Origin: a virus
IMG/VR virus record: IMGVR_UViG_3300032073_000045
Span: 1-51,769 of that record
DNA length: 51,769 nt
Reading direction: 5' to 3' (one strand)
This document shows positions 4,636 to 45,709 of the stretch, one piece after another. The notes under the pieces are model-generated. The model worked only from the letters and a program-made list of their open reading frames with translations, was not told the DNA's origin and ran no database searches. Position 1 is the stretch's first letter. Each line of letters opens with the position of its first letter. Position numbers and translations under genes: made by a program.

Positions 4636-4650
4636 AATTAAATATACACT
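4636..4650 (-). promoter_or_regulatory. candidate late promoter motif
   Basis: Minus-strand AAGTGTATATTTAAT ends a few nucleotides before the protease-scaffold ATG. It overlaps the last codon of the terminase gene, so transcription could restart here for the head genes. Confidence 0.5.
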
Positions 4651-6521
4651 TAGTTTATAAACATGGGAGTAAAGGTGGTAGCTACTGTTTCTACTTTAGA
4701 ATCCATCATATCATAATAAAGTTTTATCATCCAATTTCCAAGTACCAATGCAGAATAACTATCTTTTCTTGCTTTTTCTGGCCCAGTTTGCCTTTTTAAA
4801 CTTGGAGGTAAATCAAAATTTTGAGTGCCCGCTGAAGAGGTTGTGATTTGAATCAAAGAGCATTGTGTCTTGATCAAATTCATCATATCAAATTGATGCT
4901 CAACAAAGTCAATCATTTTTGCCTCTTTTGTTTGTCGCTCTCCAGATAAAGATGTTCGCAGAAAATTTATTTTATCGATTGGAATCTTTTGTCTTCGCTG
5001 AGTATTGTATTCATCATCAATCGCACGAGAAGCGAATGCAATTCTGCGGTGATCGAAATTAGATTGCAATAATTCGTTTGCTCGCCTTATCCATTGACTA
5101 GTAGGTTTTCGCAAATAACAAATTGTATTATTATCTAAATTATACTCGCGCTTACCTTCTATTAATTTTTGTTGATAATTTTCTATATCATCAAAGTTTG
5201 TATTGATAAACTTTATATTGATTTTATTCTCTTTAAACAAACTACTTTCATTCGCAGCATTCATAAACTGTACTCCACCATTATAATCGCCAACAATACT
5301 TACAATATTAAAATGTTTTAATAAATAATAAAAATAATAAATATGTTGTTTTAAATTTGCTCCAGACAATGCATAGCTGTGAACCACAGTACCAGTTTTC
5401 TTTTCGTCATTTAATTTTATAACCATCATTGCAAAGTCATCGCTGCTCTCACTCTCAGCCCAACTTGGGTCGAACGCAAGAATATACTTTGAATCTGGAG
5501 TGCCTTTAATTTCTGTTGTCGGAGATTCTCCATCTTTTAATGTGCAGGCTGCCATTTTTGAGGTCTTAAAATAACCAGAACTATCGTCAGTAAAAATAGC
5601 CCCAAACTCTCGATCAAACTGACTTTGACTCATGGTTGATTTTGCTTGATTGATCAAATTTTGATCGTACAGCTGCCTGGGAGCGCAATCATAACTAAAC
5701 TGCATTATAACTCGGTGGGCATCCGATTCCTTTTTTCCGCCAACCCGAATGAGCTCTTCAAATTGCTCGTAAGCTTTATACATATATTCAAACTTGTAAC
5801 TGGCAGAGGACAAAGCTATCAGTTTATTGTTTGGCCAAATATGGCGATCCTTTTCCTGCATTTTGCCTTGGCGTATAAGTTCTGTTTCGACATTATACAA
5901 ATCCTCACGCTGTGTTGGATTTTCAACAACACTCAAGAATGGTATAATAACCTCATTATAAATTCTTTCGGGCATCAAAGCAAACTCATCAATAATGATT
6001 CTGTGAAAACGAAATCCCCGAAGCTTCTCACCATCACCAAGAGGCAAGGCTCGTATTCTAGAACTTCCAATTTCTAGAAGCCACTCATCATTACTTTTAG
6101 ATTTGTGAGTTATGCACTGCGAAAGGTACATAGCTTCAGGCTTAGCGGCGATATCCTCAATTTTTTTGAAAATCATTTTTGCCTGACGAAAAGATTTAGA
6201 AAGAATACCAATCTCAACACCTTGATTCATTATCGCTTCTAAGTATGCATAAATAGCCGTAGTGAATGATTTACTCATTCCTCGACTCCAAACCCCCATA
6301 AAATAATCTGTTTCAAACATAGCCTTGATAGCCATATGCTGAAAAGGGAAAAGTTTGACGCCAGATATAAGATCCGTAGTAAAGGTTATATTTTCCCGCA
6401 GAAACTTGTATAAAAGAATTTTAGCCTCTTCCTCTTCTAAATACCCTTCTAGTTCAAACAATTTTTTATTAAAGTCTGGGTCAGCATTTCTGCTTACCTG
6501 ATTTCCTATTTCCCAAGCCAT
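4650..6521 (-). CDS. terminase large subunit
   Basis: 623 residues. The N-terminal ATPase has a deviant Walker A (SRGMSKS, 79-85) and Walker B RIIIDEF with Asp178-Glu179. The C-terminal RNase H-like nuclease shows Asp351 in ILAFDPSWAES and Asp412 in IVGDYNGG. Length and motif order fit the motor-nuclease that packages DNA into the prohead. The start shares TAATG with the stop of the ERCC4 nuclease gene. No recognised small terminase adjoins it; the 8.1-9.2 kb and 6.5-7.4 kb genes are the candidates for helper packaging functions. Confidence 0.95.
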   Translation of the reverse strand: MAWEIGNQVSRNADPDFNKKLFELEGYLEEEEAKILLYKFLRENITFTTDLISGVKLFPFQHMAIKAMFETDYFMGVWSRGMSKSFTTAIYAYLEAIMNQGVEIGILSKSFRQAKMIFKKIEDIAAKPEAMYLSQCITHKSKSNDEWLLEIGSSRIRALPLGDGEKLRGFRFHRIIIDEFALMPERIYNEVIIPFLSVVENPTQREDLYNVETELIRQGKMQEKDRHIWPNNKLIALSSASYKFEYMYKAYEQFEELIRVGGKKESDAHRVIMQFSYDCAPRQLYDQNLINQAKSTMSQSQFDREFGAIFTDDSSGYFKTSKMAACTLKDGESPTTEIKGTPDSKYILAFDPSWAESESSDDFAMMVIKLNDEKKTGTVVHSYALSGANLKQHIYYFYYLLKHFNIVSIVGDYNGGVQFMNAANESSLFKENKINIKFINTNFDDIENYQQKLIEGKREYNLDNNTICYLRKPTSQWIRRANELLQSNFDHRRIAFASRAIDDEYNTQRRQKIPIDKINFLRTSLSGERQTKEAKMIDFVEHQFDMMNLIKTQCSLIQITTSSAGTQNFDLPPSLKRQTGPEKARKDSYSALVLGNWMIKLYYDMMDSKVETVATTFTPMFIN

Positions 6522-27802: not shown

Positions 27803-27886
27803 TTAATAATCTTCGTTTTTATTTTCGATTGCTGCGCGGATGAGACCTAGGATTATTGAGACGACAATAATTAAAGTCGGATCCAC
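27803..27886 (-). CDS. tiny membrane peptide (27 aa)
   Basis: GTG start in a TAGTG overlap with the HhH-GPD stop: (M)DPTLIIVVSIILGLIRAAI then ENKNEDY. It is similar in sequence and start context to the 24-residue peptide at 20850. Confidence 0.5.
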   Translation of the reverse strand: MDPTLIIVVSIILGLIRAAIENKNEDY

Positions 27887-28461
27887 TATGCTGTGCCAGA
27901 ATACTTCTTCCAGATTTCTAAATCAAGATCAGTCACTGACTTACCTAGTTGTCGAGCAATACTCTTAAAGATGTTCGCGAAATAATGATAAGTGTTCTCG
28001 TTGGTCGGCGTGCTCTTTGGGGCGTCACTGTATCCTTGATCACGAAGGAACCTTAAGATATGTGTATCGAGCATTGGTTCGTCAAAGTCTTCGCGACTAT
28101 GAGAAAGAAAGAATCTTGCTGTTTTGAGCCCGATGCCAGCAACCTGTAGTAAACGGTTAAGAGTAACGGTTTGAAGGTCTTGAATCTTGGATACAGCAAC
28201 ATAAGAATTGTATCTTTGCTTGTATGGGCTAAGCTTTGCCCAATGCATGATCTCCTGCAACCGGCCCAATTTAATCAATTTTCTTATACAATTAAGTGGA
28301 GTAGTTTCTTTTGTTATATCTTTTGCTCTTTCAATAAACACTTCTAATTTAGGTGCTTCGATTGAACTTTTCTTTCCTGCTACATTAATACAAAATAAGA
28401 TAAATTCTTCTAATTCGTATTGTGTTCTATTATAGTTTGTTACTTCTGCTGGATTAATCAT
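27886..28461 (-). CDS. HhH-GPD (endonuclease III-like) protein
   Basis: 191 residues from ATG 28461. The hairpin LLQVAGIGLKTARFFL (104-119) and the LDTH motif with Asp132 match the helix-hairpin-helix and catalytic Asp of the EndoIII/AlkA superfamily. The iron-sulfur cluster cysteines of EndoIII are absent. Likely a base-excision glycosylase or an enzyme acting on modified bases. A second HhH-GPD protein lies at 40.7 kb. Confidence 0.78.
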   Translation of the reverse strand: MINPAEVTNYNRTQYELEEFILFCINVAGKKSSIEAPKLEVFIERAKDITKETTPLNCIRKLIKLGRLQEIMHWAKLSPYKQRYNSYVAVSKIQDLQTVTLNRLLQVAGIGLKTARFFLSHSREDFDEPMLDTHILRFLRDQGYSDAPKSTPTNENTYHYFANIFKSIARQLGKSVTDLDLEIWKKYSGTA

Positions 28462-28480
28462 ATGTTTTTTTTGTTTATGG

Positions 28481-28735
28481 TTATTGTGCAATGTGGAGTG
28501 TTGTGCGAAGATTGTCGCATTCTTTACTCGAGAAAAATACTTCTCTGCAATAGTCGACATCTCTATTTTCTACATCTTCGATGCGTTGAATTGCACGCCA
28601 AACAGGCATGCGTTCTCTTTGCATTCCGCCCCATTTGATTACTACTCTCATGTGTGGAAAGTGTTCGTTGAGTTCGGCGAGTTGTGGTTTGGTTATATAT
28701 CCGTAGTTCGCGAGAATGTTTTTTAATGTGTTCAT
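28481..28735 (-). CDS. small protein of unknown function
   Basis: 84 residues from ATG 28735 (MNTLKNILANYGYITKPQLA...), fixed by a promoter ending 7 nt upstream. KWGGMQRERMPVWRAIQRIE looks like a compact helical unit. Upstream partner of the HhH-GPD gene. Confidence 0.68.
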   Translation of the reverse strand: MNTLKNILANYGYITKPQLAELNEHFPHMRVVIKWGGMQRERMPVWRAIQRIEDVENRDVDYCREVFFSSKECDNLRTTLHIAQ

Positions 28736-28742
28736 GAGTACT

Positions 28743-28770
28743 AGTATGACAGATTTCGAATCATTGTCAA
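28743..28770 (-). promoter_or_regulatory. sigma70-type promoter
   Basis: -35 TTGACA, 16 nt, -10 CATACT; ATG 7 nt later. It lies just past the terminator of the RNA gene. Confidence 0.8.
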
Positions 28771-28772
28771 AC

Positions 28773-28807
28773 AAAAAAACCTACCCAAGGAATAAACCTT
28801 GAGTAGG
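28773..28807 (-). terminator. intrinsic terminator of the noncoding RNA
   Basis: CCTACTCAAGG and CCTTGGGTAGG pair over 11 bp around TTTATT, followed by TTTTTTT on the minus strand. Confidence 0.93.
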
Positions 28808-29168
28808 CTAGAATGCATGATTAAGAAAATGGTGTGGGGAAGGACTACTGTATACCTCCAATTTTTCGGCGTGAACATCAGTTCATTGTGTACCTACTTC
28901 AAACTACAGACTAGACATGGTATTGTCATTTGGCTCATTCGATTGAACTCTACCAACCCTACCACAGGGATCTGCATACTTTAGCCCGCTCACGACAGGC
29001 TTATTCGGTCACCCACAGGATGTCTCCGTCGAGAACATCCAAAGTTAAAACAAATTGAAATGAGAATGTAAACTCTGATCTACAGAATGACGTATTAAAC
29101 TCCAACTTGTTTTTAAAATGTAAAAGATCAATTATTTTATTTGATTGAGTTTATTTCTCAATTGTTAT
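28773..29168 (-). ncRNA. candidate structured noncoding RNA, about 390 nt
   Basis: A consensus promoter (TTGACT-17-TATAAT) fires into this segment and a perfect intrinsic terminator ends it, with no credible coding frame between. Most of it (28810-29045) is clearly richer in G+C than the flanks. Local hairpins are visible: ggatgt...acatcc (29018-29040), atccct...agggtt, agcc...ggct. TGTGGG at 29012-29017 could pair with CCCACA at 28833-28838, closing a large domain. I find no tmRNA, RNase P or 6S signature, so the class is unknown. Confidence 0.72.
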
Positions 29169-29174
29169 ACGAGT

Positions 29175-29203
29175 ATTATACTATATATTTGATTAAAAGT
29201 CAA
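29175..29203 (-). promoter_or_regulatory. consensus sigma70 promoter of the noncoding RNA
   Basis: -35 TTGACT, 17 nt, -10 TATAAT. Predicted start about 29168. Confidence 0.9.
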
Positions 29204-29211
29204 GTACTTTT

Positions 29212-29466
29212 TTATATATTTGTAATTTTATTATTTGCTAATCTATTTATTCTTAATAAGTCTTGTTGTATTTGATTGATGTATTTGTATGTATTATTTG
29301 CATCAATTATTTTATTGTTTGGATATTGTGTGCAATGATAAAGATCAGCAATAAATTCATTTAGCTTGGCGAGTTTAACATATACATATTCTTTTTCAGT
29401 TAGCTCGTTGCGAAGTTCTTGTTCTGTGGCGAACATCGAGGCTTTTGGGGATAGTGGCTTGATCAT
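29212..29466 (-). CDS. small helical protein
   Basis: 84 residues, helical (NELTEKEYVYVKLAKLNEFI ... INQIQQDLLRINRLANNK). ATGA overlap with the upstream gene. No family recognised. Confidence 0.68.
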   Translation of the reverse strand: MIKPLSPKASMFATEQELRNELTEKEYVYVKLAKLNEFIADLYHCTQYPNNKIIDANNTYKYINQIQQDLLRINRLANNKITNI

Positions 29467-31265: not shown

Positions 31266-31288
31266 GAACTAATTTTAAAAAAGTGGTG

Positions 31289-31371
31289 TGCCCAAGGAGG
31301 GACTTGAACCCTCACGCTATTACTAGCAACGGATTTTAAGTCCGTAGCGTCTACCATTCCGCCACTTAGGC
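31289..31371 (-). tRNA. tRNA-Leu(TAA)
   Basis: Acceptor GCCTAAG/CTTGGGC, anticodon loop with TAA (CTTAAAA), a long variable arm, T-arm GAGGG-TTCAAGT-CCCTC. CCA is not encoded. Confidence 0.93.
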
Positions 31372-31404
31372 AAATTATTTGGATTCTATAAATTCTTTTG
31401 TTAA

Positions 31405-31481
31405 TGGCGGGATAGACGAGACTCGAACTCGCGACCTTCTGCGTGACAGGCAGACACTCTAACCAACTGAGCTACTACCCC
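31405..31481 (-). tRNA. tRNA-Asp(GTC)
   Basis: Acceptor GGGGTAG/CTATCCC, anticodon loop with GTC (CCTGTCACG), T-arm around TTCGAGT, encoded CCA. Confidence 0.94.
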
Positions 31482-31513
31482 CATTATTTGATAAAAATAT
31501 TTGTATAATTAAG

Positions 31514-31606
31514 TGGCGGAGAAAGAGGGATTCGAACCCTCGGAAGAGTGTTAAACCCTTCAGCAGTTTAGCAAACTACCGCATTCGACCACTCTGCCAT
31601 TTCTCC
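31514..31606 (-). tRNA. tRNA-Ser(GCT)
   Basis: Acceptor GGAGAAA/TTTCTCC, anticodon GCT in TTTGCTAAA, a long variable arm, T-arm GAGGG-TTCGAAT-CCCTC, encoded CCA. Confidence 0.94.
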
Positions 31607-33368: not shown

Positions 33369-34559
33369 TTATTCATAATTTCTAAAACCTATTGCATAAG
33401 GAAACCTTGGAATTCCATCGGGAGTAAGTTGGAAATACTTAATGGTTGCTAACTGACCAATATAATCTTTGCGATTATCATAGATTTCTTTGAGGTATTC
33501 AAATGAACCTTTAATATTAGAATTGAATGTGGTATTTGTTTTCGGACAATAACACACTAAATGTTTTGCAGTTCCACTACGATTGCCATTTCCAATATTA
33601 ATATCTACAACTTTATATTCTGCATCAATAAATTCTTTTCTTTTTAATAATGATGTACTTCTTTTGTTATCATATTTAGATAGTGATTTGCGAACCATTT
33701 GTCCTTCGTATCCTTGTTCAAGATATTGTTCATACAAACTATTTAGATTGCCGAGAGAATATACTTCATTTGTTTCAACTAATATAATATGTTTGTTTGT
33801 CATTAGTTTAGCTTTTAGTTCATCCATTCTAAAATCAAACGATTGGTTTTCATTTACAACATCATTGATCTTTGGTGCATCATATACATGATATTGAATA
33901 GTATCTTCTGCTTCTGCGAGTCGTTCTTGATATTCAGTTTGCTTTTTGGCAAATGCTTTATCAGTCATACTTGCTGACTTGGTTGGTCTTTGCTTGCGAA
34001 CAAGTGATGTAATCTTGTTGAAGTTTTCACGCAAATCATGGTTGTATAGTTCACCATCGAGAATAGCGTTTGGATGAGCGAGAAAGAACCCATTTAGGCT
34101 TTTAAGGATATGAGGTATGCACTCTATCTCCTTACCATTGCGAGTTCGTCCTACGAGTTCTCCATCTTCTTTGCGAACAACACAACGAATGCCATCTAGC
34201 TTTGGTTGCGAAAAATGAGGATACTTACCAACCAATTCGTCTTGACGATCTTTAAAATTGTGTGCAAGCATTGGCTCATAAAACTTTTTTTTCTGTGCAT
34301 CTATCTCGTTGAGGGCATACCCACTATCCAATTTCTTTTGGAATTTAGCTTGAGCTTGCAATTCTGCTTGACCTTCGGGAGTTGTTTCATTACTTCGCCC
34401 AACATTCTTGGCGATTGTGGTTGTAGCTTTATCTTGGGTCTTCTTGCCCTCAACCAAGCCTTTAACTGCATAAAAGGATGCACCATCGATGTGCATCGTC
34501 CACTCACGCAATTTTCCTTTAGTATCTACTTTATATAATGTCTGCAATGTTTTCGTCAT
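33369..34559 (-). CDS. ATP-dependent DNA ligase with WGR-like domain
   Basis: 396 residues. The N terminus (about 5-80: LYKVDTKGKLREWTMHIDG ... KNVGRSNETTPEGQAELQAQ) matches WGR-like domains found on some phage ligases. The core has motif I QPKLDGIR with Lys120, motif III ILDGEL (Asp168), motif IV GYEGQMVR and motif V LLKRKEF. It seals nicks in replication and repair. Leaderless start from the promoter. Confidence 0.94.
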   Translation of the reverse strand: MTKTLQTLYKVDTKGKLREWTMHIDGASFYAVKGLVEGKKTQDKATTTIAKNVGRSNETTPEGQAELQAQAKFQKKLDSGYALNEIDAQKKKFYEPMLAHNFKDRQDELVGKYPHFSQPKLDGIRCVVRKEDGELVGRTRNGKEIECIPHILKSLNGFFLAHPNAILDGELYNHDLRENFNKITSLVRKQRPTKSASMTDKAFAKKQTEYQERLAEAEDTIQYHVYDAPKINDVVNENQSFDFRMDELKAKLMTNKHIILVETNEVYSLGNLNSLYEQYLEQGYEGQMVRKSLSKYDNKRSTSLLKRKEFIDAEYKVVDINIGNGNRSGTAKHLVCYCPKTNTTFNSNIKGSFEYLKEIYDNRKDYIGQLATIKYFQLTPDGIPRFPYAIGFRNYE

Positions 34560-40539: not shown

Positions 40540-40698
40540 TTACTTAATTCTATCTAGAAAACTTTTCATTAATTTTACATGATAGTGCATTAACACTAAC
40601 TCCGATTGATCGTACTGATCTCTTATGTGTCCAATTAATAGATAATGTTCTGTGCAGTCAATTAAATCTTGCAAGGCTAGTTTTTCTTTGTTGTTCAT
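40540..40698 (-). CDS. small helical protein
   Basis: 52 residues from ATG 40698 (MNNKEKLALQDLIDCTEHYL...), in an ATGA overlap with the HhH-GPD gene. Confidence 0.62.
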   Translation of the reverse strand: MNNKEKLALQDLIDCTEHYLLIGHIRDQYDQSELVLMHYHVKLMKSFLDRIK

Positions 40699-41456
40699 GC
40701 TTCTAAGCAGTAACTCCAATAACGAGAATTTCTTCTGCCTTGAACCTTGTTCCAATACATTTCTCTTGCGACATTTGGCGAAATGCCATACTTGTTGCAA
40801 CGAGCAAGCCACTCATTCTCCATCTCCTCATAGACCTTGAGACTACTTGCATGACCTTTCTTGAGGTCGTGACCCATGAACCGCAACAAGTGAACATCCA
40901 AGCAACAAAGTTGCGATTCTGTTGGATAACTAAGAGAAAGAGCATAAGTTGTCTTTGCGTTACCTAATCCATAAATTGTTCCGATTAAACGATTGCGACA
41001 TTCTTGCCATGTCTCTTCATCTTGCTTCTTGAACTGATCGGGGTTTTCACGAAACTTAGTAACTAAATCCCACAATCCACGCTCTCTACGCTCATATAAG
41101 CCGACTTTAGCCTTGACGATCATCTGCTTGAGCTTATCCTTGGATAAAGTCCAAGAAAGATCGCTCATGGCAATCTCGTAGCCTCGCACATTACTTTCCC
41201 AAGTTGTGTGAACGCTCATAATTGCGAATACCCAACGAGCAAACATTTCTGCATCGTCTTTGGGAATTAAGTTTGTCCAATAATCAGTCTCGCTTTTGAC
41301 TGCACCAAATTTAAGGTTGTCGAAAAACTTATCAACATTCCTAAAGGGGTCAACTTGTATTGTAGGTTTTGACTCCTCAACAAGTTGGTTGATAGGAGCG
41401 ATAGCGTTTTCTAATAACAGAATTTGTTTATTCAATGTGTCTTTTGCAATGTTCAT
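40695..41456 (-). CDS. second HhH-GPD protein
   Basis: 253 residues from ATG 41456. GTIYGLGNAKTTYALSLS (159-176) and CLDVHLLRF with Asp187 give the hairpin and catalytic-Asp pattern, as in the 27.9 kb protein. An N-terminal helical extension (1-150) and a C-terminal region (SPNVAREMYWNKVQGRRNSR) differ. Likely a base-modifying or excision enzyme; the long N terminus is unusual. Confidence 0.7.
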   Translation of the reverse strand: MNIAKDTLNKQILLLENAIAPINQLVEESKPTIQVDPFRNVDKFFDNLKFGAVKSETDYWTNLIPKDDAEMFARWVFAIMSVHTTWESNVRGYEIAMSDLSWTLSKDKLKQMIVKAKVGLYERRERGLWDLVTKFRENPDQFKKQDEETWQECRNRLIGTIYGLGNAKTTYALSLSYPTESQLCCLDVHLLRFMGHDLKKGHASSLKVYEEMENEWLARCNKYGISPNVAREMYWNKVQGRRNSRYWSYCLEA

Positions 41457-41463
41457 GTTTATA

Positions 41464-41491
41464 AGTATGACATAATCATAAGAAATGTCAA
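41464..41491 (-). promoter_or_regulatory. sigma70-type promoter
   Basis: -35 TTGACA, 16 nt, -10 CATACT; ATG 7 nt later. Confidence 0.8.
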
Positions 41492-41544
41492 GAGTTTTTT
41501 TTGTTTTTTGTTTTTTTTGTTTTAAGTATGTGGTATTCAGTAAT

Positions 41545-41952
41545 TTAAACTTCGCAAAAATCAAATATAATAGGACAATTATCTATTGCTCCACAATTTT
41601 GAGGATTAATGTCAAGTCTCTCGCAGATGTTTATACCTAATTTGTTTAATATTTTTTTGTAATTATCTTTTGAGCTTTTGGTATTTGCTTTTTTTTGTAT
41701 TACAATTTTTTCGTCAATATAATATGGTTTAATATAATAGTTTTTTATTTCGCTTGGAACATTCGCAAATTCATCGTTGAGGGAGTTGGCTACTTTTATA
41801 ACATAACCTAACTTTTTTTTAGAGTAAACTGACTTGTAACTTCCAATGCCAATTTGCTCAAACCCTCTAACGATAATTTGCTGAATGAATTTTTCTGTAT
41901 TCTTTTCTAGTTCCAAGTAAAGATCAACAATCTTAGACTTGGTTTGCCTCAT
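41545..41952 (-). CDS. miniature protein-kinase-like protein
   Basis: 135 residues. A glycine loop (EQIGIGSYKSVYS, 32-44), a lysine (VIKVAN, Lys53), a catalytic-loop-like RLDINPQN (Asp114, Asn119) and an IIFDF motif (Asp131, where kinases have DFG) appear in kinase order. It lacks most of the C-lobe, so it is less than half a usual kinase. It may be a minimal active kinase or a pseudokinase decoy. Host or phage targets are unknown. Confidence 0.6.
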   Translation of the reverse strand: MRQTKSKIVDLYLELEKNTEKFIQQIIVRGFEQIGIGSYKSVYSKKKLGYVIKVANSLNDEFANVPSEIKNYYIKPYYIDEKIVIQKKANTKSSKDNYKKILNKLGINICERLDINPQNCGAIDNCPIIFDFCEV

Positions 41953-42226: not shown

Positions 42227-43384
42227 TTAATTAAACTCAACTCTCCACATGGATCGAGGCAAGTCTTCATCTTCAAAAATGTCATATCCAAGATCAATTA
42301 CTATATCTTGTATTTCTCCACAAGTCAACTCTGAACCTTTCATTCTGCTTTGAATTTGTTTGAGCATTGGACATTCTCCATCTTCATGCTTGTTTTCAAT
42401 GTAATTTCTGATTGAAAGATAATCGTTGGGCATATCTTCTAATGGCTCATTGTAATCATCATCATCATAATTTTCGGGAAGAGTAACTTTTGGTTCTCCG
42501 TATTCGTCAAGATCATAATTATCGTCATCAGACAAATCACAATCGTAGTCGCAATTATCATCTTCACAACAATCATCTGAATCTGATCCATAGATAGGCT
42601 TATTAGCCTCGTAGATGGGCTTATCAATCTCTTTGCGAGTGTCAGTAATGTCAGACACTACCTTGTACTTTGAAACCCTAAGTTTCTGAAAGTTGCAATC
42701 AGTAGGAACGCTAACTGCATCTGATGGATCAAATTCAACAACAAGTAATTTGCCGTCTGATCCCGCCCATTCGTTAGCGTAATCGTAACTACCCACATGA
42801 AGACCAAAAGAACAATGATGATCCTTGTTGTCATCCACACATCTACGAGCAACTTCAATCGTTGTACCAACTTCATTGAGAATTTGATGCCTACCATTAG
42901 TCTCCCCTTGCAATACGATTGTATCTGCATTACCTGTTTGTGACCAATAATCTCCTTGAACTCCCTTATACCCCAATACTTTTCCTTCGGGAGTATTTGG
43001 CAGAGATTTATAACTCAAGAAAGAATACAATTCATTTACAGAATTTGCACTTGGATTGGATTGCAAGCGAGTAATAAAGTTTACAAGAGGAGCAGAATCT
43101 TTCATTCCACTACGAAGCATTTCTAGCAACTTGTCAACAACAACTCCATGCAGACGATTGTTCTTGTAGTAAACAACTTCGTCACGCACTTCAATGTCTC
43201 CTTCGATAAAGTTTTCGACTGACTTTTTGATGTCAATGAGATCGCCAAGATCATCATATCTTGCATCAAATAATGCCTTGCGTACAAGTTGAAAATTTGG
43301 ATGGTCACTACGAAGAGTGTATGGCTTGCCATCCCAAAAGATCGTTACTGAATTTTCGCTTAATGTATATGGTACTTTTTTCAT
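42227..43384 (-). CDS. rIIB: rIIB-like protein
   Basis: 385 residues. The N-terminal region (FLSYKSLPNTPEGKVLGYKG) and the cysteine/glycine block HCSFGLHVGSYDYANEWAG correspond to the conserved core of phage rIIB proteins. A very acidic stretch (DDDNYDLDEYGEP region, about 280-315) follows. In T4 rIIA/rIIB counter the Rex exclusion system and affect lysis. The gene lies just after rIIA in the same direction. Leaderless start from the promoter. Confidence 0.85.
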   Translation of the reverse strand: MKKVPYTLSENSVTIFWDGKPYTLRSDHPNFQLVRKALFDARYDDLGDLIDIKKSVENFIEGDIEVRDEVVYYKNNRLHGVVVDKLLEMLRSGMKDSAPLVNFITRLQSNPSANSVNELYSFLSYKSLPNTPEGKVLGYKGVQGDYWSQTGNADTIVLQGETNGRHQILNEVGTTIEVARRCVDDNKDHHCSFGLHVGSYDYANEWAGSDGKLLVVEFDPSDAVSVPTDCNFQKLRVSKYKVVSDITDTRKEIDKPIYEANKPIYGSDSDDCCEDDNCDYDCDLSDDDNYDLDEYGEPKVTLPENYDDDDYNEPLEDMPNDYLSIRNYIENKHEDGECPMLKQIQSRMKGSELTCGEIQDIVIDLGYDIFEDEDLPRSMWRVEFN

Positions 43385-43390
43385 TATTCT

Positions 43391-43419
43391 AATATAATAT
43401 ATTTTTGTTTGTTTGTCAA
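43391..43419 (-). promoter_or_regulatory. sigma70-type promoter of rIIB
   Basis: -35 TTGACA, 17 nt, -10 TATATT; ATG 6 nt later, predicting a leaderless mRNA. It lies at the very end of rIIA. Confidence 0.8.
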
Positions 43420-43420
43420 G

Positions 43421-45709
43421 TTAATTTTTATCACAGAGTAAAATATAATCTATAATATCTTTAAAAAGTTTTTCATCTGCTCTATATGAATTTACACTAT
43501 TTGATACATAATCGAGGAAAGAATACTTTTCTCTAATTGTATCTATATCTTTTGCGAATTGCTTCGCAGAGAATCCATTGTCAAGATTGAATTTGAGCCA
43601 ATCTTTATCGAACTTAGAAATGAATGCGATTGCAGAATTACATTGAGGGCAAGCACCTTCATTGATAACGATCTGAAAGTTATCTCTGATCTTGCGTACC
43701 AAATTATCTTTTGGTAATTTGTCGAACTTAATTCGAGTTGAATTCATAATGTATGCAAGATTGTATCTGCAATCAGCAATAGACTTCTGAATATCCGTAT
43801 CATCGTGATGAAGAGAGTCTACGCTAAACTTAATGTAAGATTTTTTCGCTTCAGTTAAGTTTGAGAGTAAATAATCTTTAGAGTTTTGAAGAAGAAAATC
43901 TTCAAAAGAAATCCAAGAATCTGAATCTAACTTAGATACATCTCCACTACGAATTCCAAACAAGCGAAACTTTTTCGCATCTGATTTGTCATCTGATCTT
44001 CTACGCACTCTATCGCATAAACTATATACCTTGCCGAGATCATAGTCATCACTATCAATCTTGTAATTCTTGATTTTTACATATACAAGTTTGCCATCAA
44101 TAGCACCATCAGTATCATCTTGGATTTTGTCAATATCTTCTTTGACATTTTTCCAATAATCTATGTTGCGGTAGCTAGGTCTTTCTTGAACCATTTCAAA
44201 TAATGGAATGTTTGCACGACTACCATTAGATTTGCGTACTCCATTGTATTGAATTTTTTCTTTAACTACATTTGATGTAAGTCGAATATGTTTCTTGTCT
44301 ACAAGATCAAAATTCCATTCATTTTTGATATAACTTTTAGCTAATTTAGTCAATGGATTAATAAAGAATATATTATTCAGTTTTTCGTTTTCATTAAATA
44401 TAGTTCTTGCACGAAGATTGTTGCCATGTGAAGATTCTATATCTTGCATAAGAAAAATTGTCTCATCATCACAATGAATTCGGGCAACTTTGTTCGAGCG
44501 AACTTTAAATCCATTTCTTGCAGAAGAATCGTGATCCCTAGTTGTTTGAGTAAGAATTAAATCATCATACATTTTATGATCTCGATGAAATGTTGCTGAT
44601 TGAATCTTGATGCCGTTCCACTCGAAAGCGTTTTCAAAAATTTGCCTCATGTTATATGGCATAGAATTAACTATTCTTGCATAGTTACTTTTTGCCTCAA
44701 AAAGATCATTTGAGTCTGCGAGTTTTTCTTTAGCAATTTCTTGCACTTCATCGCAAGCCTTTAACATTGCACCAATAATCTTTTGTTGAGTAGCTTTGTT
44801 GTACTCTAATGACTCTCTACTATGATGCAATTTGACTGCACCTAATGGTAATCGCAAATAAAAATTTGTTTGACCAAGTAGGTTGTAGATAATATCTTTC
44901 TTTCTCGAACTCTCTACAAAATTATCAACTTGAACAGAGTTTTTATCTAGTGGATAAGCAACTCTTCCCATGATAATGTGAGCATTATAACTTCTTTGAC
45001 TATAATAAGAATCATTGCGTTCATCTTCCAAGAAAAACCAAGAACCATTCTTCGATTCAATAACCTTACTTCTGTTTCTAATAAAAGTTCCATCGTCACC
45101 AATAAACTTTGGCATTTCTTTGTCAGAAAAGAACTCAAAAAAGTTTTTAATTATCTTGCGAAAATCATCCACATCTGATTCTGAAACCGCAACTTCAATG
45201 CAAAGACCACTTGGTTCATTGCTTGGTTCGGGTTCTTGCAGTTCTACAATTTTTGTGTCATCATTGTCATTAACAAAGACATTATATGAACTTTTGAGTC
45301 CACCATTATAGGAAACGCAAGTGAAATTGTCTCCATAGGAAAGCGGAGCAAATTTACCAATACCAAATGCACCAATATAATTGTTCGATTGCCTTTTGGT
45401 ACTCTTGCCATACTTGGAGTATAAGCCGAATACATCTTCTTTACTTAGTCCACCGCCAAAGTCACGAACTCTAAAAGTAGGACTTAGCTTGCTAGGAATT
45501 GAGATTTCAATCGGTCGAGTTTCGTTAGCTTCAACATTCGCATCTAGTGCATTAGCACTAATCTCACGAACGACTGCAAGCCGAGTGTTGGAGTAATTGT
45601 TTCGCAAGAGCGAAGCAACATAACGCATATCTTCGGCATCAATCGTACAATTTACGGAATCAAAATCGTGCGACTGCACAATGGTTTTTTTATCTTTTTC
45701 AATTATCAT
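43421..45709 (-). CDS. rIIA: rIIA-like protein (GHKL ATPase)
   Basis: 762 residues. A GHKL ATPase N terminus has VVREISANALDAN with Glu49, Asn53 and Asp56, then RDFGGG (Asp83) and GAFGIGKF (113-120). This is the layout of phage rIIA proteins. The long C-terminal half is helical and charged with two cysteines (CPQC). It probably acts with rIIB against host exclusion. It starts from a consensus promoter with a leader of about 35 nt. Confidence 0.88.
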   Translation of the reverse strand: MIIEKDKKTIVQSHDFDSVNCTIDAEDMRYVASLLRNNYSNTRLAVVREISANALDANVEANETRPIEISIPSKLSPTFRVRDFGGGLSKEDVFGLYSKYGKSTKRQSNNYIGAFGIGKFAPLSYGDNFTCVSYNGGLKSSYNVFVNDNDDTKIVELQEPEPSNEPSGLCIEVAVSESDVDDFRKIIKNFFEFFSDKEMPKFIGDDGTFIRNRSKVIESKNGSWFFLEDERNDSYYSQRSYNAHIIMGRVAYPLDKNSVQVDNFVESSRKKDIIYNLLGQTNFYLRLPLGAVKLHHSRESLEYNKATQQKIIGAMLKACDEVQEIAKEKLADSNDLFEAKSNYARIVNSMPYNMRQIFENAFEWNGIKIQSATFHRDHKMYDDLILTQTTRDHDSSARNGFKVRSNKVARIHCDDETIFLMQDIESSHGNNLRARTIFNENEKLNNIFFINPLTKLAKSYIKNEWNFDLVDKKHIRLTSNVVKEKIQYNGVRKSNGSRANIPLFEMVQERPSYRNIDYWKNVKEDIDKIQDDTDGAIDGKLVYVKIKNYKIDSDDYDLGKVYSLCDRVRRRSDDKSDAKKFRLFGIRSGDVSKLDSDSWISFEDFLLQNSKDYLLSNLTEAKKSYIKFSVDSLHHDDTDIQKSIADCRYNLAYIMNSTRIKFDKLPKDNLVRKIRDNFQIVINEGACPQCNSAIAFISKFDKDWLKFNLDNGFSAKQFAKDIDTIREKYSFLDYVSNSVNSYRADEKLFKDIIDYILLCDKN

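Follow-up and report, generated by a model that had tools for sequence, protein, structure and literature searches.

The manA RNA motif was described almost exclusively from marine metagenomes and T4-like cyanophages, with two gamma-proteobacterial cases, and was proposed as a candidate riboswitch placed before sugar and nucleotide metabolism genes, the ibpA chaperone gene and photosynthesis genes (Weinberg et al. 2010, PMC2864571). Rfam files the family (RF01745) under the type Cis-reg. A copy is also carried by S-CREM1 (PMC9964418), and another by the Bifidobacterium megaplasmid pMP7017, where a tmRNA and an array of tRNAs were reported with it (PMC10832533). No ligand or function of manA was reported in the literature we searched.

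Here we analysed the viral record IMGVR_UViG_3300032073_000045 from IMG/VR over its whole length of 51,769 nt (the window). A preliminary description, made from the letters alone, had proposed a strongly expressed, structured RNA of about 390 nt and of unknown class. The observation was confirmed and its interpretation partly supported: the RNA family is a known one, but its configuration and surroundings are new.

Identification of the window RNA

Using cmscan with Rfam 15, we recovered a match to manA at 28829–29040 on the minus strand (89.4 bits, E 1.2e-21) that spans model positions 1–192. The match is full length and lies far above the gathering score of 55.2 bits, so the "unknown class" fails by the test that the preliminary description had itself named, an Rfam hit to a known class. 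Across the whole window, manA and three tRNAs were the sole structured RNAs matched, and besides manA a permissive search of 28600–29300 with 4227 families gave no match up to E = 1, neither to GOLLD and ROOL nor to tmRNA, 6S or RNase P. ARAGORN also found no tmRNA or tRNA inside the RNA, which agrees with the earlier remark that hallmarks of tmRNA, RNase P, 6S and tRNA are missing.

The conserved manA segments GUGACUGAAUAA and GGUAUACAGUAAUCC are present in the window RNA as GUGACCGAAUAA and GGUAUACAGUAGUCC. Together with the model score and the covariation-supported P1, multibranched domain and pseudoknot (see below), they make its membership in the manA family close to certain. A new class unrelated to manA would fit the scores of the window RNA and its nearest relatives (class B below), which are about half of those of cyanophage manA. 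Such a class is hardly credible and was rejected on the RF01745 match, which runs end to end at E 1e-21; moreover, the segments GUGACYGAAUAA and GGUAUACAGUARUCC are common to manA, and the pseudoknot is the same and in the same register.

The other properties noticed at the beginning held up. On the minus strand, the segment is not covered by any ORF of 60 aa or longer, and the G+C content of 28829–29040 is 47 % against 35 % in the window, with only 1.7 % of 212-nt windows being that high. The segment is predicted to fold with an MFE of -107.6 kcal/mol (z = -3.45), a value as low as which was not seen in any of 100 shuffles. The predicted transcript, from 29168 to approximately 28778, has the proposed length of about 390 nt: the 212-nt manA core is preceded by an antitermination leader, which includes a variable hairpin, and followed by a terminator.

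Two classes of manA

Pattern scans of IMG/VR yielded more than 80 contigs with candidate relatives, and 40 of the 47 fetched records scored over the manA cut-off with the covariance model. L236 and L238 were dropped, as the DNA pattern matched and the manA model did not. Two kinds of manA separate cleanly. Class A is the cyanophage kind, with a core of 148–154 nt and 158–187 bits in the copies scored. Class B has a core of mostly 166–168 nt (three members of 159–160 nt) and scores of 70–89 bits, and it is to this divergent phage subclass that the window RNA belongs by its sequence. The class-B set comprises 22 non-redundant members, which are not fully independent samples because class-B phages share synteny.

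Other searches were less productive. The blastn search of the window RNA against phages and plasmids gave nothing useful, the first pattern scan of genome contigs returned mostly chance 15-mers, and manA was not found in 395 genomes of one order, a search run without a positive control. Among the genome-contig loci fetched, only L179 (NZIN01000056.1, Rickettsiales MAG MED606) matched manA; its 11.5-kb contig is probably viral DNA binned with a bacterium. Neither of the two proteins tested, the terminase and rIIA, had a close relative among 50,697 phage records. The window carries rIIA/rIIB-like genes, a distant terminase and an ATP-dependent DNA ligase (42227–45709, 4650–6521 and 33369–34559, respectively), and two of its proteins (27886–28560 and 40695–41564) show weak matches to the Pfam family Ogg-HhH (8-oxoguanine DNA glycosylase; E ~1e-5 and 1e-6).

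Covariation and the pseudoknot

On the minus strand of the window the core opens with the P1 hairpin GGATGT...ACATCC (29018–29040), followed by the 5′ strand of the pseudoknot, TGTGGG (29012–29017); the 3′ strand, CCCACA, lies at 28833–28838. This long-range pairing had been suggested as possible, and it coincides exactly with the pseudoknot in the Rfam model of manA. The proposed covariation check on collected homologues was also positive. The alignment of 22 class-B sequences contains 51 pairs, 26 of which changed on both sides, and 97.9 % of the cells are paired; in P1, four of the seven pairs show double changes. None of 500 shuffles reached any of the five measures used, and sliding the partners dropped pairing to 39–50 %, with about 50 % left after a shift of one column.

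The pseudoknot is invariant within class B (TGTGGG/CCCACA) and therefore gives no covariation signal there. Between the classes, GUGGG/CCCAC (B) is replaced by GGGAG/CUCCC (A), which amounts to two compensatory changes, and P-HM1 and MED4-213 display a further double change (GGGUG/CACCC). The discovery paper marked the manA pseudoknot with a question mark (PMC2864571); given these changes between and within the classes, the sequences provide clear compensatory support and the question mark can be removed.

Promoter and boxA leader

The putative promoter of the RNA gene, TTGACT-17-TATAAT, is located at 29175–29203 (minus strand) with a predicted start near 29168. It was originally called perfect; the elements are there as described, but they match 11 of the 12 consensus bases, so near-perfect is more accurate. 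Strong expression of the RNA is a prediction drawn from this promoter. Promoter-like sites are not commoner in the window than expected (18 against 16.6 from shuffles). A sigma70-type promoter is found at the same place in all 21 class-B relatives bearing a boxA (see below), with a 17-bp spacer in nearly all, and L209 is the only one of the 22 members without its own upstream promoter.

Between the promoter and manA, every promoter-bearing class-B leader contains a block similar to TGATCTTTAACATTTTAA. In the window it includes TGATCTTTTACA (29119–29130, minus strand), which agrees with the E. coli rrn boxA TGCTCTTTAACA in 10 of 12 positions, and this is also the only exact occurrence of TCTTTWACATT in the window. 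The boxA is matched at 10/12 or better in 20 of the 22 leaders and at 9/12 in L081, the exception being L209, while the background is 0.0115 expected matches per leader at 10/12 or better, and across the 477,000 remaining positions of that DNA no match of 11/12 occurs. When leaders are anchored on boxA, the 18-nt block is 84–86 % identical between them and the flanks 31–49 %. The result was replicated independently in manA loci collected through a neighbouring protein of 84 aa (see below), where 38 of 39 have a boxA of at least 9/12. In eight genomes, boxA was found only ahead of manA, in a MAG contig.

BoxA, bound by NusB-S10, is both required and sufficient for formation of the rrn antitermination complex, which resists Rho and may assist folding (PMC10250234). 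Outside rRNA, boxA occurs at suhB, and the gamma-proteobacterial consensus is GYTCTTTAANA (PMC5725501); a further source, citing Stringer et al. 2020, also places boxA elements ahead of CRISPR arrays and long noncoding RNAs (PMC7862264). In view of these roles, we read the leader boxA as a signature of a long untranslated transcript, and it would bind the host factors NusB-S10. The window boxA departs from that of E. coli at two positions (GATCTTTTACA), and GYTCTTTAANA is matched exactly in only four class-B loci.

Just 5′ of boxA, in a boxB-like position, lies the hairpin TTGAG-AAATAAA-CTCAA (29145–29161, minus strand). A TTGAG...CTCAA hairpin precedes boxA in 17 of the 22 leaders, with compensatory variants TTAAG/CTTAA in L024 and TCGAG/CTCGA in L081. 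The E. coli rrnB leader, CGCCGCTGAGAAAAAGCGAAGCGGC-ACTGCTCTTTAACAATTTA, displays the same order, a boxB hairpin and then boxA. In approximately half of the class-B leaders, pairing between the loop and the bases preceding boxA is clear (GGAT/ATCC, GGGC/GCCC, GAGGC/GCCTC, AGCT/AGCT). Overall this signal is only moderate, with values as high as that observed in 108 of 5000 permutations, and the pairing is suggestive.

Ten of the 22 class-B leaders, including the window (29047–29113, minus strand, folding with z = -3.4), contain an extra hairpin insert at the same point between boxA and manA, with unrelated sequences. The inserts measure about 50–200 nt, usually have complementary ends and always lie between boxA and manA P1. 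They were considered as hidden tRNAs or known RNAs, but gave no Rfam match in five loci and appear as variable hairpins instead; they possibly serve as a processing stem or as a place where cargo RNA is inserted. The three tRNAs of the window (Ser-GCT, Asp-GTC and Leu-TAA) form a cluster at 31288–31606 on the same strand, 2.2 kb upstream of manA, and have no boxA. An association with tRNA islands as in GOLLD/ROOL proved weak, tRNAs being present in 11 of 23 records and mostly far away.

The conservation of boxA far above its flanks could also mean that the activity resides in the leader itself, with an abundant phage RNA titrating host NusB-S10 and so lowering host rRNA synthesis. We consider this highly improbable, with one boxA per transcript and with the promoter of cyanophage manA sitting directly at P1. 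Because this leaves no room for boxA there, the conserved function should reside in the manA core.

Transcript end and the downstream gene

The strong intrinsic terminator predicted at 28778–28809 (minus strand) consists of 13 pairs followed by TTTTTGTTTG. With the promoter upstream it completes a noncoding transcription unit on the minus strand (29203–28778), as had been proposed. A terminator follows manA in about 18 of the 22 class-B loci (14 found automatically and those of L034, L045, L050 and L218 by eye). These terminators have unrelated sequences and lie at distances of 20–190 nt. None was found in L007, L035, L209 and L237, and in three of these four a gene starts 30–41 nt after the motif. 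In L179 (1482–1692), L259 and L260, the interval between manA and the terminator holds a second conserved-looking noncoding segment, GGCAAATATGCGGAGG...GTAACTCAATAAAAGCC, and another one, GGTTG(C/T)ATTTGGACTGAAACG, is located 3′ of manA and before the terminator in L289 and L290; both may be another structured RNA on the same transcript.

Past the terminator, the next gene (28481–28735, minus strand), encoding a protein of 84 aa (P0001), has a putative promoter of its own, TTGACA-16-CATACT (28743–28770), whose -10 box ends 7 nt before the ATG. TTGACA-type promoters 3′ of the terminator occur in about 16 of the 22 class-B loci including the window, and the next gene is often leaderless. Promoters whose -10 box ends 6–7 nt before an ATG are seen at 28770–28735 and 31265–31231 of the window and in many class-B loci, which implies leaderless mRNAs in this phage group.

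These data bear on the published view of manA as a cis-regulatory riboswitch, by which the RNA would sense a metabolite and control the 84-aa gene through the terminator at 28809–28778. It has the Rfam type and the discovery paper (PMC2864571) behind it, the gene lies on the same strand and is paired with manA in most loci (see below), and many cyanophage copies have a gene 50–65 nt downstream with no terminator between. At the window and in most relatives, however, a terminator and then a promoter (28770–28743) stand between the RNA and the gene, so that the two do not seem to share one transcript with manA in its 5′ UTR; a gene 30–41 nt downstream without a terminator was seen in 3 of the 22 loci. 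An attenuator with an antiterminator was rejected, as the complementarity of terminator 5′ arms to the manA core in 14 loci was no better than that of shuffled arms. The downstream genes of class B fall into nine groups, eleven loci sharing the 84-aa family, and a boxA leader would be unusual for an attenuator.

The class-A copies point in a similar direction. Most of those examined have a consensus promoter at P1, and their neighbours vary: manA follows gp23 in P-HM1, P-RSM4 and MED4-213 and pstS in P-SSM3 and P-SSM4, in these cases with small genes next to it, and precedes talC in P-RSM6, purL/hsp20 in P-SSM2 and a carbamoyltransferase gene in P-SSM7. Neighbours this varied are explained by a movable, independent RNA no less well than by a single metabolite switch, but cis-regulation may still apply to the many class-A copies that sit tightly in a 5′ UTR. 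For the window RNA we regard a riboswitch as unlikely, and prefer transcription of manA as a gene of its own. In the cyanophage-type loci L019, L039, L080 and L205, the terminator hairpin of the gene upstream (AGGGTGTTGACACCCTCTTTTTTT) contains the -35 element of the promoter of manA. Many class-A copies have a T run directly after the pseudoknot strand, which suggests that manA may end itself.

The 84-aa protein

Through the 84-aa protein rather than the RNA we collected 43 loci, two of which were cut by the contig end. In 39 of the 41 testable loci manA lies upstream of the gene (25 detected by pattern and 14 by Rfam). P0001 had no relative in Pfam, PHROG or PDB. Its predicted model is confident (pLDDT 93), with a compact alpha/beta fold; a structure search with this model matched nothing in PDB at E<=0.001 and, in BFVD, a single unnamed viral protein (4e-4). 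Part of the linkage is explained by general synteny, as 28 of 32 non-redundant loci retain a gene similar to L5 gp82, whereas immediate neighbours are kept only in 3–17. The 84-aa protein is the best candidate for a partner of the RNA.

In type III toxin-antitoxin units, an RNA gene is followed by a terminator and a small protein gene. The same order at the window, the linkage in 39 of 41 loci and the compact, confident fold of P0001 could thus be explained by an RNA that binds or neutralises the protein. However, the RNA has no repeats, the protein gene has its own promoter, no toxin fold was recognised for P0001 in PDB or Pfam, cyanophage manA has no 84-aa partner, and the synteny already noted accounts for part of the linkage. 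A type III-like pair is improbable, and we retain the 84-aa protein as a possible partner in the model below.

A probable stand-alone RNA gene with an rRNA-type leader

Stand-alone transcription of the window manA is likely. We propose that host sigma70 RNA polymerase would start near 29168 and that the nascent leader hairpin and boxA would recruit host NusB-S10 together with the remaining Nus factors, as happens on rRNA operons. On the untranslated RNA the elongation complex would then resist Rho, and it may help the RNA to fold into P1, the multibranched domain and the closing pseudoknot UGUGGG/CCCACA. Transcription would end at 28778, with the next gene starting from its own promoter, and the released RNA would act in trans, possibly with the adjacent 84-aa protein. 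For the window RNA, the balance tips in favour of this mechanism as a whole, antitermination and trans action included. Sequence and comparison establish the family, the structure with its pseudoknot, the conserved boxA, the promoter, the terminator and the separate promoter downstream, whereas NusB-S10 binding, high expression and trans action are what we infer rather than read from the locus. Against it stand the four loci where no terminator was found, three of them with a gene shortly after the motif, and the many cyanophage copies directly upstream of genes. The 84-aa gene could still be controlled through a terminator that leaks, the boxA is a variant at two positions with respect to E. 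coli and exact to the consensus in only four loci, and shared synteny makes the class-B loci less than independent.

More tentatively, and just short of an even balance, we suggest that manA does more than act as a riboswitch, or does not act as one at all. In a large group of marine phages it would be a free-standing, trans-acting, rRNA-style RNA with a linked 84-aa protein, and this RNA or ribonucleoprotein system would exploit the antitermination machinery that serves rRNA synthesis in the host. If the phage copies do stand alone with an rRNA-type leader, the experiment they call for is not a search for a ligand-controlled gene, and a phage noncoding RNA would join the short list of boxA-driven transcripts (rRNA, suhB, CRISPR arrays).

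Comparison with known systems

The window RNA shares with the published manA motif (PMC2864571) the full-length model match, the conserved segments, P1, the pseudoknot and its occurrence in marine phage DNA. It differs in belonging to the subclass with the longer core (166–168 against 148–154 nt), in having the pseudoknot UGUGGG/CCCACA instead of GGGAG/CUCCC, and in its putative promoter, boxA leader and terminator, where the published motif has a plain 5′ UTR position. Cyanophage copies (P-SSM2, P-SSM4, P-HM1, P-RSM6, S-CREM1 etc.) are of the same family and most of those examined have their own TTGACA/TATAAT promoter; unlike in the window, this promoter abuts P1, there is no boxA leader and no 84-aa gene, and a gene often follows 50–65 nt downstream. 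The pMP7017 copy, like that of the window, resides on a mobile element.

GOLLD and ROOL (PMC12286853) are likewise free-standing structured phage RNAs of unknown function, but with other sequences and structures, and the adjacency to tRNAs is weak in class B. The E. coli rrnB leader shows the promoter, hairpin, boxA and then a structured noncoding RNA in the same order as here. In the window, however, these elements form a phage gene for one small RNA with a variant boxA, and in some class-B leaders, unlike rrnB, the loop of the hairpin may base-pair just ahead of boxA.
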